64,000 nucleotides of DNA from Salinivirga cyanobacteriivorans (GTDB lineage: Bacteria > Bacteroidota > Bacteroidia > Bacteroidales > Salinivirgaceae), in assembly GCF_001443605.1 (NCBI RefSeq), contig NZ_CP013118.1:1209075-1273074 (forward strand), read 5' to 3'. A program made the position numbers and the translations under genes. Positions 7 through 8,598 of this stretch are shown one piece after another (the first letter of the stretch is position 1; every line of letters starts with the position of its first letter). Under the pieces are notes generated by a model that saw nothing but the letters and a program-made list of their open reading frames with translations, ran no database searches and was not told the DNA's origin.

Positions 7-276
7 GTTGTGAATTGCTTTCAGATTGTTCTTTGATATATTTGTGTCAGCAGAGAAACATTTGGAATATGTAAATGAATGGTTGTGAATTGCTTTCAGA
101 TTGTTCTTTGATATATTTGTGTCAGCGCGGATAGTTTTAATGATACCATCGAAATTGTTGTGAATTGCTTTCAGATTGTTCTTTGATATATTTGTGTCAG
201 CAAGTGATGCTGGTATACAAGGCAGTAGGGCGTTGTGAATTGCTTTCAGATTGTTCTTTGATATATTTGTGTCAGC
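7..276 (+). CRISPR. Type II-C CRISPR array (cas-proximal end)
   Basis: Four identical 45-nt repeats lie at 7-51, 82-126, 157-201 and 232-276, separated by three unrelated 30-nt spacers (52-81, 127-156, 202-231). Bases 1-6 are the end of another spacer, so the array continues to the left of the window. The repeat begins GTTGTGAATTGC, typical of Bacteroidota type II-C arrays. The tracrRNA anti-repeat at 7554-7573 pairs with the repeat as read on the + strand, so crRNAs are made left to right, toward and opposite to the cas genes. Repeat positions 31-38 read TATATTTG, an exact TAnnTTTG -7 box, with ATTG 19 nt upstream as a -33 element. The repeat next to cas2 is not degenerate. Confidence 0.97.
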
Positions 277-2477: not shown

Positions 2478-3125
2478 CTATAGCTCAATATACTTTTCGG
2501 CAACTTTTTGGTTAACCAGCCTTCCATTGCGCAACCCGGCATAATCTTTTGCCGACGAAAATTCCCATTCTTCAGGCTTCGCAACCAAACCGGCTTTCAC
2601 CGGGTTTTGGTGAATATAGTTAAAGCAAGCTTGCGGATACTCTTTTTCGGGGTTACTCACATGAATTTGCGTACCAAATTCGGTAGCATAAAACGTCGGG
2701 GTTATGCCGTTTGGGCAGTTGATGCATTCGGCTTTGGTGGTTTTGCGGAATAGTGAGCCGGAGCGCATTTCTTGTTTGTTAATCGCATTGGTGTAGGATC
2801 GCAGCATGATGCCGATAGAATGATTTATGGTTCGAGAAGTCCCGGAACCGATCGTTTCATGCCTGCTACCGAGGGTTTCGCTTGGAGCGAAGCCCTCGGT
2901 ACGTCTGCGATTTTCTTCCTTCACGAGCAATTTTACTTCGTTTACCAACACCATCAAATGAAAATGGTTTGGCATCAAACAATAGGCTAATATATCGCCA
3001 TAGAGAACCACATGTGTCCATAGCTTTTTCAAAAAGAAAAAATAATTCTCCCGTTCAAAAAACACTTTTCTACGGTTATTTCCCTGGTTGTAGATATGAT
3101 AAATATAGCCTTGTTCAATTACCAT
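2478..3125 (-). CDS. REP-associated tyrosine transposase (RAYT), copy 2
   Basis: This is the second copy of the same 215-aa Y1/TnpA_REP transposase, with the same PNHFHLMV HUH motif and YIHQNPVKAG Tyr motif. About a dozen residues differ from copy 1. Nearly all lie in the first 120 residues; the C-terminal 95 residues differ at one visible position (Gly for Arg near residue 200). The in-frame EGFAPSETLG palindrome is present at the same place, so it predates the duplication. Its start lies about 60 bp beyond the cas9 stop, in operon orientation. Confidence 0.93.
   Translation of the reverse strand: MVIEQGYIYHIYNQGNNRRKVFFERENYFFFLKKLWTHVVLYGDILAYCLMPNHFHLMVLVNEVKLLVKEENRRRTEGFAPSETLGSRHETIGSGTSRTINHSIGIMLRSYTNAINKQEMRSGSLFRKTTKAECINCPNGITPTFYATEFGTQIHVSNPEKEYPQACFNYIHQNPVKAGLVAKPEEWEFSSAKDYAGLRNGRLVNQKVAEKYIEL
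2867..2901. repeat. REP-like palindrome inside RAYT copy 2
   Basis: Same 35-nt palindrome as 2166-2200, exactly 701 bp away and likewise translated in frame. Confidence 0.85.
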
Positions 3126-3187: not shown

Positions 3188-6100
3188 TCAAAAGAAGAAT
3201 CTGATTTGATTATCTGCTTTGAATTCAAAATCTTTACCTTCGTAAATGCAATTTAATTTCCCCACTGTAAGAAGCAAACGTGGCCGTATAAAATCCAATC
3301 CAAATGAACTAAAACCATTTTTACCCGCTTTGCCAAATAATTTCTTCCCATTTTCATCTTTATCAGGGAAATCTCTGATTAGCTGTTCATCAGTACGAGC
3401 CTCCAAATGATGTTGAAATTGAATCCTCCCTGTTTTACCATCAAACAAAGTTTTAACTACATATAAGTGAGAGGATAAATTATCTGTATGTTTTAATTCT
3501 TCTTTATCGTCAACATAAAATAACACATGCTGCCCAACCTGAAATACATTATAAAGCTCCCCAATTTTTTTTCGTTGCCCTCTGCCTACCATTATATTTC
3601 GCTCAAAGTAATCCTCAATTTTTTTGTGCTCGTCAATATCCTGCTTTGATACTTCAAATAGGCTTTTGGGAATAATCTTTAGCGGCTTTTTGTTTTCATC
3701 CACGTATAAGGCGAACCCAAAATTATCACCTGAATTAGCATAATAATAATTCTTATAATCATACCTGGACAGATAAGTTTGTTGTTTAACGGTAGTAACA
3801 TCGTCAGGTGATAAAAAACCTCTCCCGGCTTTCACCCGGCACCTAATATGCCTTATTGTATTACCAGCCTTATCCTTTAGCTTATTTAACTCAACTCCAT
3901 TATCGATTTGTTGGTGAATATGTTCTGAAAGGGCTTTATCCACAATAATATCAGTTTTGGGATTTAATTCTTCAATTTTCTTTCTTCCTACCATCCAAAA
4001 CTCATCTTTTTTATCCAACGCTTTAATTTTGCCATAAAAGGTTTCTTCATGTAATTGGCCTCTGATACTATCACCCTTTGCAACCATTGAAACCTTTTCA
4101 CCCCTATTGTTTTTCACCTTCACAATTTTTTTTCGTTTGCGGACAACTTTTTTTGCAGGAGCTAAGGCTTGATTTTTTGATTCATGTTTTATCAGTATTT
4201 TGTCCTCAATGAAAGGCACCATATTTTTCACCTTATTAAAATTGCAACTTAAGCGTTCCTTATTAAGTTCTTCCTGCAATTCAGGGGTATCTTTGTTGAG
4301 TTTTTTATGTTCTTCAATTTTGTAAAATAAAGAAAGCATCTTTTCTCTTTTGGCCGATTTAGGAATTAATGTAAGGGTCGCAGCATCAATTGCGTGATGA
4401 GAGTGTTTCGTTCTGTCTTTCTTTTCATAGGCTTTCTGAACGCCTAGCATTTTTCTAAAATCTGCTGTCACTTCACCTTTCTGTACATCAACACTATTAA
4501 ATACTGTTTTTAGATAATGAAAGACATACTTTGTAATCAAACGAGTGTCTACAAGTTGACTATTTTTAAAACTCGACTTAACCTCTTTCATAGTAAATCG
4601 TTCCAACTTGTTTTTCCAGTAATCAAGTTCCATTTCCCATAAATGCCTTTGGCGAATGGCAAAATCTTTGGCTGGCTTATCTTGTGCCCGTTTAGCTTTA
4701 AACTTCCAGTTATTCACATTATCTTGTAACCGTTCTACCTTTTTTTTCCAATGCTTTAGCTGGTCTTTTATGGGAGGATATTCTTCATCACCAATTCTTG
4801 CAGTTTTTTCATAATTCTCCAATTCGAAAGGAAGTTTATTCTTTTTAATGGTTCGGTTGTAATATGCATCACATACAGTTAGGTTCGCCAAAGAATTATC
4901 AAAAGATTTACTTCGAGGGATTGTGTGTTCAAAATCAGTAGTATTATTTTCAGAAAACAAGCTGGTAAGATTTAATGGTTTTCCTGTATAAATGCATCTG
5001 CACCCCTGTTCAAGCCATAATTTATACTTCTTTACGTTTTTTTCAAACATGCCATCTTCAACAGGAATTTCGTGCTGATCTATAAGTAGTTTAGCTTTTT
5101 GTATTTCATCATTGCTTATTTTTCGATTAGTATTAAAATAAGTCTGTATTATCTTTGATATTTCATCATTCTCTTTCTCCCGCTCCCCTTGATATTTCCT
5201 AATTGCCCAGCGTTTATTCGCATCATTCAAATCACGAGCAGTTTCAACAACTATCCGGGTATCTTCATCAATGATTCCTTCCTTCAGAAGTTTATTAATC
5301 TCTTTACGAAGTATGTGCAGTGCTTTCATGGCCATTGGATTTTTAAATGATCCAATTACAGGACTTTCTAATAGCTTCATGGATAATTGCACGCCATTGT
5401 AATTAAATGACTGTGCTATTGCCGGAGGATAAAATGCAATTTGGGAAGGATGATAGAGTTTATTAAGCTTTTTACAGGCATCACATTTGCAATTGTTTTG
5501 ATGTGAATACTCCTCGTAGTTTTCACATCGAAACATTTCAAATTTCTTACTTAAGAACTCCTTCAAAGCATCACTTACTTTTGGGATTTTAAAAAAATCC
5601 CTTTTTTCAGTTTTAAAGAATGCCTGATAGTCCTCCCTAACAACATCTAAAACCACCCCTCTCTTTTCAACGGACATTTCTGACCAAGATTTGGCTCCAT
5701 AATTGGCAATGCAGAACTCTTCAATCTGCTCTTTATCTTTTTCATCTAGAAGGTAATTTACCTCCTTAGTCGCAAATCCTTCATCATTATATTGCAGCGA
5801 CTTATAATTTCCTATTAAATTGTTTACAATATTTAAAATTCTTTTTTCAAAGCGATTTTTGACAATTATATCAGAAATTGATTTCTCTACTAGCTGTCCA
5901 TACTTTTCCCACTTGTGGCTACCCATCAATTCAGGTATTTTTGCCAACAATACGGCTTCAGTATAAGGATATCCTTGTTTCAAAAACGGATTGATATTGC
6001 GAATTGCCTTTAAACTTAACATACCATAACCTTGTTGAATAGCACCCCAAATTCTCACTAACTCATTTGCTTTTATTTCATTATAACCCAGCCTTTTTAT

Positions 6101-7513
6101 CCCAAACTCATATACAAATTCACTTTCATCGTATGAAAAGCAAATATGCCAAATGTCTTCATAGTTATAGGTAATTTTTTTCACCTCACCAGTTGTCCTA
6201 TTAACTTTCTCTTTATCAACAGGTATCAACATACTCTTCCAATTATCTCCCAAAAGGTTTTTAAGTCTACCACTAATTGGACAACCCGCCACATTCGTTT
6301 TTTCTTTATAGTTTAAAGTTTTGTCTTTGTAAGATAAAGCGATACCGAACCGTTTAGATAACCACTTTGCAATATCTTCGAATTTAAAATTTGACCGTGT
6401 CAACAAAAATTTCTCATTAAATAAATCATGTTTATCTTCTAATGCTAATGATTGCCATTCTTCTTCAGCATTTCTTCGGTACCTGATATTATTGATCAAT
6501 GACCATGCCCTAAACTCCTCAAAATCTGGATGACTTATAGGGCATCGAGGTTTTCCTTTTTCGATTTTCTGATTGTTTCTTTTATCAAAAAAAATCTTAC
6601 GTTCCATTGTGCAAAGTCCCACTAATCCTTTCTGAGACCGTAATGGCTTTTTATAGAAAATAGACCCTTTTTCTTTACGCTCACTAATTATTCGATCGAA
6701 AAGATCACTATCGGTACTCAGGGCTTGTTGAAATTTAAAAATCTCATAGACCTCCTCTTTATATTGTGACCTTATGGCTTGATACTTTCCACCTCTTATT
6801 CTTATTCCATTTCTTTCCAATAATGCAAAAGCCTGTCCAACTGTTTTTAGATTATTTTCTTTCATGTATGTCGTTAGCTCTTTAGATTTATTATCTTCAG
6901 ACTTTTTCAACTCACGTATTATGTCTTTATCTGGCTTGCTTTCAATACTATTATTCTCTAAATTCTCTTGTTCTTTTATTGTTTCTCCTTTACTACTTTT
7001 GAAACCTCTCCGCTGAGCAATATGATATAAAGCTCGTCCTAACTTATAGCGATCTATGGCATTCTTCATATCTAACTGTCGATTCATTAGCTCATCTCTC
7101 AGTTGATATGGACTAGCATAATCCGGTTTTCCATCACCATTAAAGTCAAGCTTAATCCATTGTTCGAATTGCTGTTCATTTACAGGGTATTTTCGATAAA
7201 GCCCTTTGGCTTTGTTATAAATACTCCATTGTGCTAAACCTGACTCAGATAATGGACACAATTTATTATATCTTAAAACCTTAAGTGTTTCCCATTTTCG
7301 ATACTTACGAGACTGATATAATCTCCTACTTGATCTGTATTTTGTTCTCTCTGCAGCATACGAATACTCTCCGGTTTTACCATTACCCACACCGGAACTG
7401 AATATAACCGAACTAAAATATTCTAATTGGTTCTCGAGATCATTTCCCAATTCAGGATTACGTACACTTAATCCTATTGAATTTGATCCCATATCTATAC
7501 CTAAAACTTTCAT
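3188..7513 (-). CDS. cas9: CRISPR-associated endonuclease Cas9 (type II-C)
   Basis: RNA-guided double-strand DNA endonuclease. The 1441-aa protein has RuvC-I GIDMGSNSIGLSV (Asp7), an Arg-rich bridge helix (about 55-80), RuvC-II RIVVETARD (Glu757), the HNH core DFEHTIPRS (His863) with YYNRTIKKNKLP (Asn886), and RuvC-III HSHHAIDAATL (His1040, Asp1043). All nuclease residues are present. Four cysteines at about 663, 675, 677 and 680 (CKCDAC) suggest a small metal site before RuvC-II. The C-terminal 300 residues are the expected PAM-interacting region. Size and order match the long Bacteroidota II-C Cas9 group. First gene of the - strand cas operon, divergent from the tracrRNA. Confidence 0.98.
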   Translation of the reverse strand: MKVLGIDMGSNSIGLSVRNPELGNDLENQLEYFSSVIFSSGVGNGKTGEYSYAAERTKYRSSRRLYQSRKYRKWETLKVLRYNKLCPLSESGLAQWSIYNKAKGLYRKYPVNEQQFEQWIKLDFNGDGKPDYASPYQLRDELMNRQLDMKNAIDRYKLGRALYHIAQRRGFKSSKGETIKEQENLENNSIESKPDKDIIRELKKSEDNKSKELTTYMKENNLKTVGQAFALLERNGIRIRGGKYQAIRSQYKEEVYEIFKFQQALSTDSDLFDRIISERKEKGSIFYKKPLRSQKGLVGLCTMERKIFFDKRNNQKIEKGKPRCPISHPDFEEFRAWSLINNIRYRRNAEEEWQSLALEDKHDLFNEKFLLTRSNFKFEDIAKWLSKRFGIALSYKDKTLNYKEKTNVAGCPISGRLKNLLGDNWKSMLIPVDKEKVNRTTGEVKKITYNYEDIWHICFSYDESEFVYEFGIKRLGYNEIKANELVRIWGAIQQGYGMLSLKAIRNINPFLKQGYPYTEAVLLAKIPELMGSHKWEKYGQLVEKSISDIIVKNRFEKRILNIVNNLIGNYKSLQYNDEGFATKEVNYLLDEKDKEQIEEFCIANYGAKSWSEMSVEKRGVVLDVVREDYQAFFKTEKRDFFKIPKVSDALKEFLSKKFEMFRCENYEEYSHQNNCKCDACKKLNKLYHPSQIAFYPPAIAQSFNYNGVQLSMKLLESPVIGSFKNPMAMKALHILRKEINKLLKEGIIDEDTRIVVETARDLNDANKRWAIRKYQGEREKENDEISKIIQTYFNTNRKISNDEIQKAKLLIDQHEIPVEDGMFEKNVKKYKLWLEQGCRCIYTGKPLNLTSLFSENNTTDFEHTIPRSKSFDNSLANLTVCDAYYNRTIKKNKLPFELENYEKTARIGDEEYPPIKDQLKHWKKKVERLQDNVNNWKFKAKRAQDKPAKDFAIRQRHLWEMELDYWKNKLERFTMKEVKSSFKNSQLVDTRLITKYVFHYLKTVFNSVDVQKGEVTADFRKMLGVQKAYEKKDRTKHSHHAIDAATLTLIPKSAKREKMLSLFYKIEEHKKLNKDTPELQEELNKERLSCNFNKVKNMVPFIEDKILIKHESKNQALAPAKKVVRKRKKIVKVKNNRGEKVSMVAKGDSIRGQLHEETFYGKIKALDKKDEFWMVGRKKIEELNPKTDIIVDKALSEHIHQQIDNGVELNKLKDKAGNTIRHIRCRVKAGRGFLSPDDVTTVKQQTYLSRYDYKNYYYANSGDNFGFALYVDENKKPLKIIPKSLFEVSKQDIDEHKKIEDYFERNIMVGRGQRKKIGELYNVFQVGQHVLFYVDDKEELKHTDNLSSHLYVVKTLFDGKTGRIQFQHHLEARTDEQLIRDFPDKDENGKKLFGKAGKNGFSSFGLDFIRPRLLLTVGKLNCIYEGKDFEFKADNQIRFFF

Positions 7514-7517
7514 AAAT

Positions 7518-7548
7518 TTTGTTTTTAACTAATTTTTATTTATTATTG
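7518..7548 (+). promoter_or_regulatory. tracrRNA promoter
   Basis: TTTG at 7518-7521 and TATTATTG at 7541-7548 are separated by 19 nt, one mismatch from the Bacteroidota -33/-7 consensus TTTG/TAnnTTTG. The predicted start at about 7553 falls exactly at the first base-pairing nucleotides of the anti-repeat. Confidence 0.6.
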
Positions 7549-7552
7549 TATC

Positions 7553-7625
7553 TCTGAAAAGACAATTCACAATAAGGCTATAAGCCGAAGATTTCTTGGC
7601 TCCGCGTACACCGTGGAGCTTTTTA
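7553..7625 (+). ncRNA. tracrRNA
   Basis: The anti-repeat pairs with the CRISPR repeat in two blocks. 7563-7573 pairs with repeat bases 1-11 (last pair G-U) and 7554-7559 (CTGAAA) with repeat bases 13-18, leaving a 1 by 3 nt bulge as in known dual guide RNAs. A 4-bp nexus hairpin (GGCT ATA AGCC, 7576-7586) follows, then an 8-bp terminator hairpin (7599-7619) with a T run. It is transcribed away from cas9. No other anti-repeat was noticed near the locus. Confidence 0.88.
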
Positions 7626-8352: not shown

Positions 8353-8598
8353 TCAGTTCATCTGGTATTGCAAACTGGTCTTAAAAAGGTGCATTGGGAA
8401 TTGACCATGGCTTACGCGGAAGGTTTCCAAATCATCCACGTAACTGATATCCACGGCATAAAGCTCTTCAAGTTCTCGAATGCGATCTTTTACTAATTGT
8501 TCGTCAATATTTAATTGCCGTGCCAATTCAACCGGAGTGCCAGTATTCTCAAGCGCAATGAGTTTGGCCATTTGTTTTAGTTGATTTACATAATCCAT
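8353..8598 (-). CDS. Small helix-turn-helix protein
   Basis: This 81-aa protein has a recognisable HTH in its first half (about residues 20-50: TPVELARQLNIDEQLVKDRI) like the N-terminal winged-helix domains of DeoR/HTH_11-type regulators, and a short C-terminal strand region. It has no effector domain, so it probably acts as a small DNA-binding protein. It stands alone between the CRISPR locus and the GH92 operon; its target cannot be told from sequence. A promoter-like pair lies directly upstream. Confidence 0.6.
   Translation of the reverse strand: MDYVNQLKQMAKLIALENTGTPVELARQLNIDEQLVKDRIRELEELYAVDISYVDDLETFRVSHGQFPMHLFKTSLQYQMN

Follow-up and report, generated by a model that had tools for sequence, protein, structure and literature searches.

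The CRISPR array that opens the window, as we call the whole 64,000-nucleotide stretch of the Salinivirga cyanobacteriivorans genome analysed here, raises the question of where the transcription of its crRNAs begins. The array lies on the plus strand (G000:C1:1202412 to 1209350) and consists of 93 repeats, each 45 nt long, over ~7 kb. The window holds its four final copies (7-51, the 90th of the 93; 82-126; 157-201; and 232-276, the last and leader-proximal one), the remaining copies lying upstream. The repeat copies are identical in 89 of 93 cases, and 86 of the 92 spacers measure 30 nt and six 29 nt. The last repeat is followed by the leader (277-343) and by an intrinsic terminator on the plus strand (344-378), formed by a hairpin of 16 pairs and a T run. 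The minus strand carries cas2 (452-796; TIGR01573 above cut-off; PADLOC Cas2_II), a type II cas1 (830-1726; TIGR03639, 295 bits for a cut-off of 120; PADLOC Cas1_II) and cas9, which encodes 1441 aa (3188-7513; TIGR01865, 334 bits for a cut-off of 100; PADLOC Cas9). Next to cas9, on the plus strand, lies the tracrRNA gene, in the order TTTG as putative -33 element (7518-7521), 19 nt, TATTATTG as putative -7 box with one mismatch (7541-7548; matrix p = 0.001), 4 nt, the anti-repeat (7553-7572), which pairs with repeat bases 2-19, and the remainder (7573-7624), with a short hairpin at 7576-7586 and a terminator hairpin with a U run at 7598-7620 (z -3.4). The pairing score of the anti-repeat, 30 against 27.5 for the best candidate on the other strand, is weak by itself, and the call is supported by the position before cas9 and the presence of the terminator. 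The combination of Cas9, type II cas1 and cas2 adjoining the array, and a tracrRNA with anti-repeat identifies the locus as type II-C. As regards a fourth adaptation gene (csn2 or cas4), which II-C loci lack, the open reading frames of at least 80 aa listed between 1 and 8600 comprise cas2, cas1, two transposases, cas9, overlapping frames and a small ORF at 8353-8598. No Rfam family matched in the window at the gathering threshold. The two transposase genes stand in tandem between cas1 and cas9 on the minus strand (1777-2424 and 2478-3125); over a 300-nt stretch they are 97% alike, and the former shows weak similarity, below cut-off, to the REP-associated tyrosine transposase. The array spacers gave no match to phage records, so that the strand cannot be confirmed from spacer targets; it is the anti-repeat that fixes the crRNA strand as plus, running towards the leader and cas2.

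An earlier note on this DNA had claimed that each repeat contains its own promoter of the Bacteroidota type, and the two elements it named are both present. The exact TAnnTTTG is found at repeat bases 31-38 as TATATTTG in all four window copies (plus strand; 37-44 in the first, 112-119, 187-194 and, in the last, 262-269). It is preceded at a distance of 19 nt by ATTG at bases 8-11, with its TTG at bases 9-11, as the putative -33 element (14-17 in the first window copy, the TTG being at 15-17; likewise 89-92, 164-167 and 239-242). Across the whole array TAnnTTTG is kept at bases 31-38 in 92 of the 93 copies, the lone exception reading TATACTTG. A generic sigma-70 promoter scan is ill-suited to Bacteroidota. 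Other loci supplied 33 tracrRNA promoters for a weight matrix; these sites were picked for TAnnTTTG likeness, with five offsets allowed, which leaves the matrix partly dependent on the consensus. In the window repeat the best matrix site is TATATTTG, with a score of 11.8 (p = 5e-5 per position), and the best on the other strand has p = 0.08. Nevertheless, the chance of an exact TAnnTTTG in a single repeat is ~5%, as judged from whole-repeat shuffles (mean 2.48 in 45 long repeats). Such a box in one AT-rich repeat is therefore not far beyond chance, and relatives are needed to decide.

These relatives were obtained by searching for Cas9 in 395 genomes of the phylum (matches in 50) and 393 genomes of the order (matches in 115), from which 131 genome stretches of 3.5 to 20 kb were taken at the matched loci. 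Together with the window's own array they yielded 109 arrays, 29 loci giving none. The window's own array and 98 others were used, and ten arrays were excluded as short, badly oriented or with a duplicate consensus. Long repeats of 44-48 nt were present in 52 arrays, 45 of them below 90% identity, and 36-nt repeats in 46 arrays, 33 of them below 90%. On the crRNA strand the exact box occurs in 28 of the 45 non-redundant long repeats, and on the other strand in none of the 45. Shuffling of bases 17 to the end gave a mean of 0.89 and a maximum of 5 in 1000 rounds, and whole-repeat shuffles a maximum of 9. Among motifs of the form XYnnZZZW, none is as common as TAnnTTTG between base 17 and the end of the long repeats. 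The box reads TATCTTTG in 23 long repeats, and TAAATTTG, TATTTTTG, TAACTTTG and TACTTTTG occur too; TA and TTTG are constant among the box-bearing repeats and the nn pair varies (TC, AA, TT, AC, CT). The tracrRNA-derived matrix places 31 of the 45 long repeats above the shuffled 95th centile, and none on the other strand. A TTG stands at repeat bases 2-4 in 27 of the 28 box-bearing long repeats, 18-22 nt before the box. The better control is provided by the 36-nt II-C repeats, with the exact box in 3 of 33 non-redundant sequences (shuffles 0.35 for bases 17 to the end and 1.4 for the whole repeat). Six non-redundant type I-C repeats from 30 loci, GC-rich and of little weight as a control, have no box on either strand. 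Evidence against a repeat promoter comes from the 17 of 45 long repeats that lack the exact box, of which seven carry TAnnTTTA instead and ten neither form.

The tracrRNA genes of these loci serve as a ruler for the distance between box and transcript. In 23 of 35 trusted tracrRNAs of long-repeat loci, an exact TAnnTTTG is separated from the anti-repeat by 2-6 nt, most often 4; the window's own tracrRNA scored too low for this set. A TTG lies 17-23 nt upstream of the tracrRNA box in 16 of 32 cases (3.8 in shuffles, none of 500 rounds reaching 16). Since the box stands at -12 to -5 of the mapped starts of Flavobacterium psychrophilum, as described in the accessible part of PMC9723704, a gap of ~4 nt implies that the anti-repeat would begin at the tracrRNA start. 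When the same measure is applied to the window repeat, the predicted +1 is A43, 3 nt before the spacer (position 49 in the first window copy, plus strand, and 124, 199 and 274 in the others), and it has a C before it. At the predicted start offset a pyrimidine-purine step is found in 17 of the 28 box-bearing relatives, and in 1 and 4 at the neighbouring offsets; offset 8 gives 16 of 28, and offsets 2 and 3 give 9 and 12.

The same tracrRNAs limit how much of the box may be kept for pairing. The anti-repeat duplex was predicted for 23 box-bearing arrays whose tracrRNA is trusted, with a query that spanned repeat bases 1-24 only, and it contains 0-2 of the 8 box bases. On ungapped extension of the duplex, 45 of 92 TTTG bases are pairable with G-U allowed, compared with 41.5 for shuffled upstream DNA (135 of 500 rounds reach 45), and the DNA pairable with TTTG lies upstream of the predicted tracrRNA start. 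By these duplex predictions, tracrRNA pairing explains part of the TA at most, and not the TTTG. We consider it probable that each repeat of the window's II-C array carries its own promoter, one for each of the 92 spacers, and the case is strong because of the relatives, not because of the window repeat alone. This part of the earlier note is supported by a strand-specific box, a TTTG beyond pairing and a TTG spaced at 18-22 nt, and what is not supported is a general place of the box at bases 31-38.

The note had named the keeping of the box at these bases in other Bacteroidota II-C repeats as a check, and the 28 boxes lie within bases 23-34, at 12-17 nt from the spacer (16 in 15 of the 28) against 7 nt in the window repeat. 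Nor would the start that it had placed at the border of repeat and spacer fall there: the prediction is ~8-13 nt before the spacer in the 28 relatives, in addition to the 3 nt in the window. Alignment with relatives, L096 (GATTGTATCTTTGATATAGG) among them, shows GATTGTTCTTTGATATATTTG in the window repeat, which is without the A of the common box, and TATATTTG downstream. At the place where 23 of the 45 relatives have TATCTTTG, it has GTTCTTTG (28-35, plus strand), perhaps a decayed box. The window repeat type was matched in 3 of the 393 genomes of the order. Genome contigs were scanned for TTCTTTGA-type repeats with the downstream bases unconditioned, and the 44 stretches retrieved are by title 20 Ignavibacteria or Melioribacter, 18 'Bacteroidetes bacterium', 2 Chlorobiota and 4 others. 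Among them the exact box is present only in L213 and L214, both from UBA5342, so that besides the window's genome a single further genome was found with the exact box at 31-38. The UBA5342 Cas9 and that of the window are 48% identical, which means that this register is common to somewhat distant genomes. TAnnTTTA occurs in five scan stretches, L189, L197 and L200 (Melioribacter, Ignavibacteriales), L210 (Salinivirgaceae) and L211 (SZUA-534), the repeat of the last being identical to that of L143. The other 37 of the 44 contain no TAnnTTTG or TAnnTTTA. Many box-less 46-nt repeats with TTCTTTGA, which the scan required (L172-L209), were seen to have, downstream of it, a block similar to nATATT, such as GATATTTG and AATATTTA, with CATATTTG in a Hymenobacteraceae record.

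Bases 31-38 are thus a minority register of the putative box among the relatives, and it may be asked whether the repeat promoter is real and works in the window through a -7 box at bases 22-29, GTTCTTTG, with the TTG at 2-4, instead of through TATATTTG. TTCTTTGA is shared by the window repeat and many box-less relatives, which is no proof of conservation given that the scan required it, and it is also found in L042, L078 and L089 of the unconditioned set; in the 37 stretches without TAnnTTTG or TAnnTTTA a promoter, if any, must read differently. However, GTTCTTTG has no TA, and its matrix score is 0.24 (p = 0.03) against the 11.8 of TATATTTG. The first repeat of the window's own array has lost the TTG at 2-4 and kept the TTG at 9-11 and TATATTTG, a pattern that truncation from outside would produce equally. 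We regard this placement as unlikely. TATATTTG at 31-38 is likely to be the working register in this genome, a reading with few relatives behind it, and from the alignment we infer that the downstream box took over from a common upstream box that was lost.

We propose that the repeat would have two roles. In the RNA, bases 2-19 would be the crRNA handle, paired with the tracrRNA; in the DNA, the TTG at 9-11 and TATATTTG at 31-38 would be a promoter for the primary sigma factor of Bacteroidota. RNA polymerase would start at about A43 and read three repeat bases, the 30-nt spacer and the following repeat, then continue towards the leader, where transcription would meet the terminator at 344-378. 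Where transcription starts would determine the spacer end of the guide. The tracrRNA gene would have a promoter of this type for itself; its product would pair with the next repeat, and the 3' end of the crRNA would be defined by RNase III or by Cas9 protection; this end would require processing or termination even with promoters in the repeats. New spacers would enter at the leader and so come last in the direction of transcription; with a promoter in each repeat, the newest of them could be expressed without reading through 7 kb. Sigma-factor binding, the start at A43, separate crRNAs and spacer entry at the leader are steps that we infer from sequence.

The polarity of the arrays bears on the more usual scheme of CRISPR arrays, in which one long precursor is made from an outside promoter and the box in the repeat would be functionless or a relic. 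All 68 long arrays for which cas1 was found run towards it, the cas strands of the own array being taken from the window; for another 14 arrays no cas gene lay within reach. This set includes 16 long arrays from the scan that selected TTCTTTGA-type repeats, and the frequency of the box in it (34 of 68) is for this reason understated, the unconditioned set having 34 of 52. Terminator hairpins were found in 34 of 53 leader flanks (shuffle 0) and in 1 of 44 opposite flanks; they could equally serve the convergent cas2. A putative outside promoter is seen in the 36-nt II-C arrays with cas1 on their 5' side, 14 arrays at 13 loci (L116 being counted twice): 12 of the 14 have TAnnTTTG or TAnnTTTA within 200 nt of 5' flank, compared with 12 of 51 long arrays, a number that includes arrays from the TTCTTTGA scan (Fisher 4e-5). 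An initial test gave 3e-7 with a flank zone of -85 to -170 that was chosen post hoc, and the 200-nt test is the fairer one. The repeats show the reverse, with the box in 1 of these 14 arrays against 34 of the 52 unconditioned long arrays (Fisher 1e-4). The flank box lies at -100 to -102 in six arrays (L041, L102, L107, L118, L124 and L129), of which only L129 has a repeat box as well. One of them, L041 (G000:C1:1121700-1141600), is a second II-C locus of the window's genome, with a Cas9 of 1526 aa, cas1, a cas2-sized ORF, a leader and an array in one direction; its 36-nt repeat has no box, and TAAATTTA stands at -101 in the 5' flank. L041 and its 36-nt relatives share with the window Cas9, Cas1, Cas2 and the same kind of box, but have the box in the 5' flank. 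The window's genome holds both kinds of array, one with the putative box in the repeat and one, L041, with it in the flank.

The 300 nt of 5' flank of the window's array contain no exact box and two sites with one mismatch. An exact box that faces the array from the leader, within 160 nt, was found in 1 of 53 long-array leaders, below the 4.1 expected, and the single case is the window's own leader, with TATATTTG on the minus strand at 317-324. This box could be taken as the outside promoter, yet it would yield antisense RNA, since the crRNA strand set by the anti-repeat runs towards the leader. A functionless box is moreover unlikely to recur in 28 of 45 diverged repeats. A single long precursor with an idle repeat box seems to us improbable here.

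The recurrence itself could have another source, the conserved block being a contact of the Cas1-Cas2 integrase or the result of some other constraint on DNA or RNA, and promoter-like by appearance only. Integration places demands on repeats, and their last bases are conserved in the alignment as ACAAC or ACAGC. The box sits between the handle and this terminal ACAAC at a variable distance from each, and its position shifts by several bases with respect to either end of the repeat, unlike a site that is measured by a ruler. The n positions of the block vary, the same motif precedes the tracrRNA at such loci, and in the II-C arrays with cas1 on the other side the block is absent in 13 of 14. 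We attach very little probability to this explanation, and retain the repeat promoter.

Two further approaches to selection on the repeat were set aside. Gap-free pairwise counts of substitutions between repeats were dropped, being confounded by the shifting box. The erosion of the first, leader-distal repeat was rejected as a sign of promoter selection: in 56 long arrays its mismatches amount to 42% in bases 1-7 and 4% beyond base 30, and 65 leader-end copies have none, but truncation from outside necessarily removes the 5' part. An improved search of 61 arrays, the initial one having been blind to short remnants, gave widely spread remnant lengths; of 16 eroded first repeats, 12 retain the whole box, close to the 55% estimated for random truncation.

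Promoters embedded in repeats have reportedly been described in the II-C arrays of Neisseria and Campylobacter by Zhang and colleagues in 2013 and by others, and the repeats of these genera have a sigma-70-type -10 at the extreme end of a 36-nt repeat. The window's array is predicted to resemble them in having one promoter per repeat, in reading towards the leader and in a crRNA 5' end that comes from the transcription start. It differs in its Bacteroidota -33/-7 pair within a 45-nt repeat and in a predicted start that lies before the spacer and not inside it. The Neisseria repeat promoters are cited in the accessible text of PMC8092290 and PMC10309648 and named in that of PMC5006608. Closer to the window, a repeat promoter has been proposed for the II-C arrays of F. 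columnare (PMC8092290) and F. psychrophilum (PMC10309648) from a TTG 33 or 35 bp before each spacer, with transcription towards the variable end; the proposal names the TTG, and the sections of both papers that were available mention no -7 TAnnTTTG box in the repeat. TAnnTTTG is applied to the cas9 promoter in the available sections of PMC10309648. Eight reads on the F. columnare II-C array, reported in the accessible part of PMC8092290, count against a repeat promoter. For CRISPR1 of Riemerella anatipestifer, a II-C array similar to ours in its 47-nt repeat that starts with GTTG, its 16-nt anti-repeat and a cas2 that adjoins the leader, the available text reports no promoter in the repeats and predicts leader promoters, the BDGP predictor having been applied to the leaders (PMC5006608). 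The consensus of the upstream promoter element is TTTG for Bacteroides fragilis, and this element was not identified by RNA-seq in F. johnsoniae, according to the accessible part of PMC7366714. A survey of CRISPR in B. fragilis does not mention promoters (PMC9367070), and the available part of PMC3936727 contains nothing on Bacteroidota. The open-access literature, as far as its text was accessible, yielded no mention of a CRISPR repeat with a TAnnTTTG box. The production of crRNA in Bacteroidota II-C systems has been little studied, as two Flavobacterium papers propose a repeat promoter from the TTG only and the Riemerella paper denies one, in the parts available. Repeat-embedded II-C promoters are already known; what would be new here is a complete and positioned -33/-7 promoter, a predicted start and a polarity rule.

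A wider scheme can tentatively be put forward, to which we give somewhat less than even weight. The promoter site would follow array polarity, lying upstream in the leader of arrays that run away from cas1 and in every repeat of those that run towards it. The box registers would fix the guide 5' end at ~12 nt before the spacer in most box-bearing repeats of 46-48 nt, 3 nt before it in the 45-nt repeat of the window, or 6 nt inside it in 36-nt repeats that end in TAnnTT, and in the lineage of the window a small deletion would have removed the common box, which would have been formed anew 7-8 nt downstream. The classes of repeat length would then be classes of promoter register. If the repeat promoter is real, it would explain how the newest spacers are expressed at the downstream end of a 7-kb array and what keeps repeat bases from drifting where they lie outside the tracrRNA duplex, and for genome engineering it predicts which repeat bases can be omitted from a guide RNA. 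The 36-nt arrays with cas1 on their 3' side have a repeat end TAnnTT in 6 of 18 non-redundant cases and NAnnTT in 11 of 18 (0.3 and 0.8 in shuffles), and those that end in TAnnTT would start at spacer base 7 by the tracrRNA ruler. Such ends resemble those of Neisseria repeats. Three loci of one genus (g75), L053, L054 and L055, have 36-nt repeats with TAnnTTTG at bases 21-28 and differing nn, as TAATTTTG, TAGTTTTG and TAGATTTG, perhaps the same constraint in a distant repeat class. Finally, the leaders of long arrays (e.g. L134, L142 and L168) show by eye a block similar to TTAGAAATNAAAAA ~45-60 nt past the last repeat and before the terminator, which is perhaps an integration signal.
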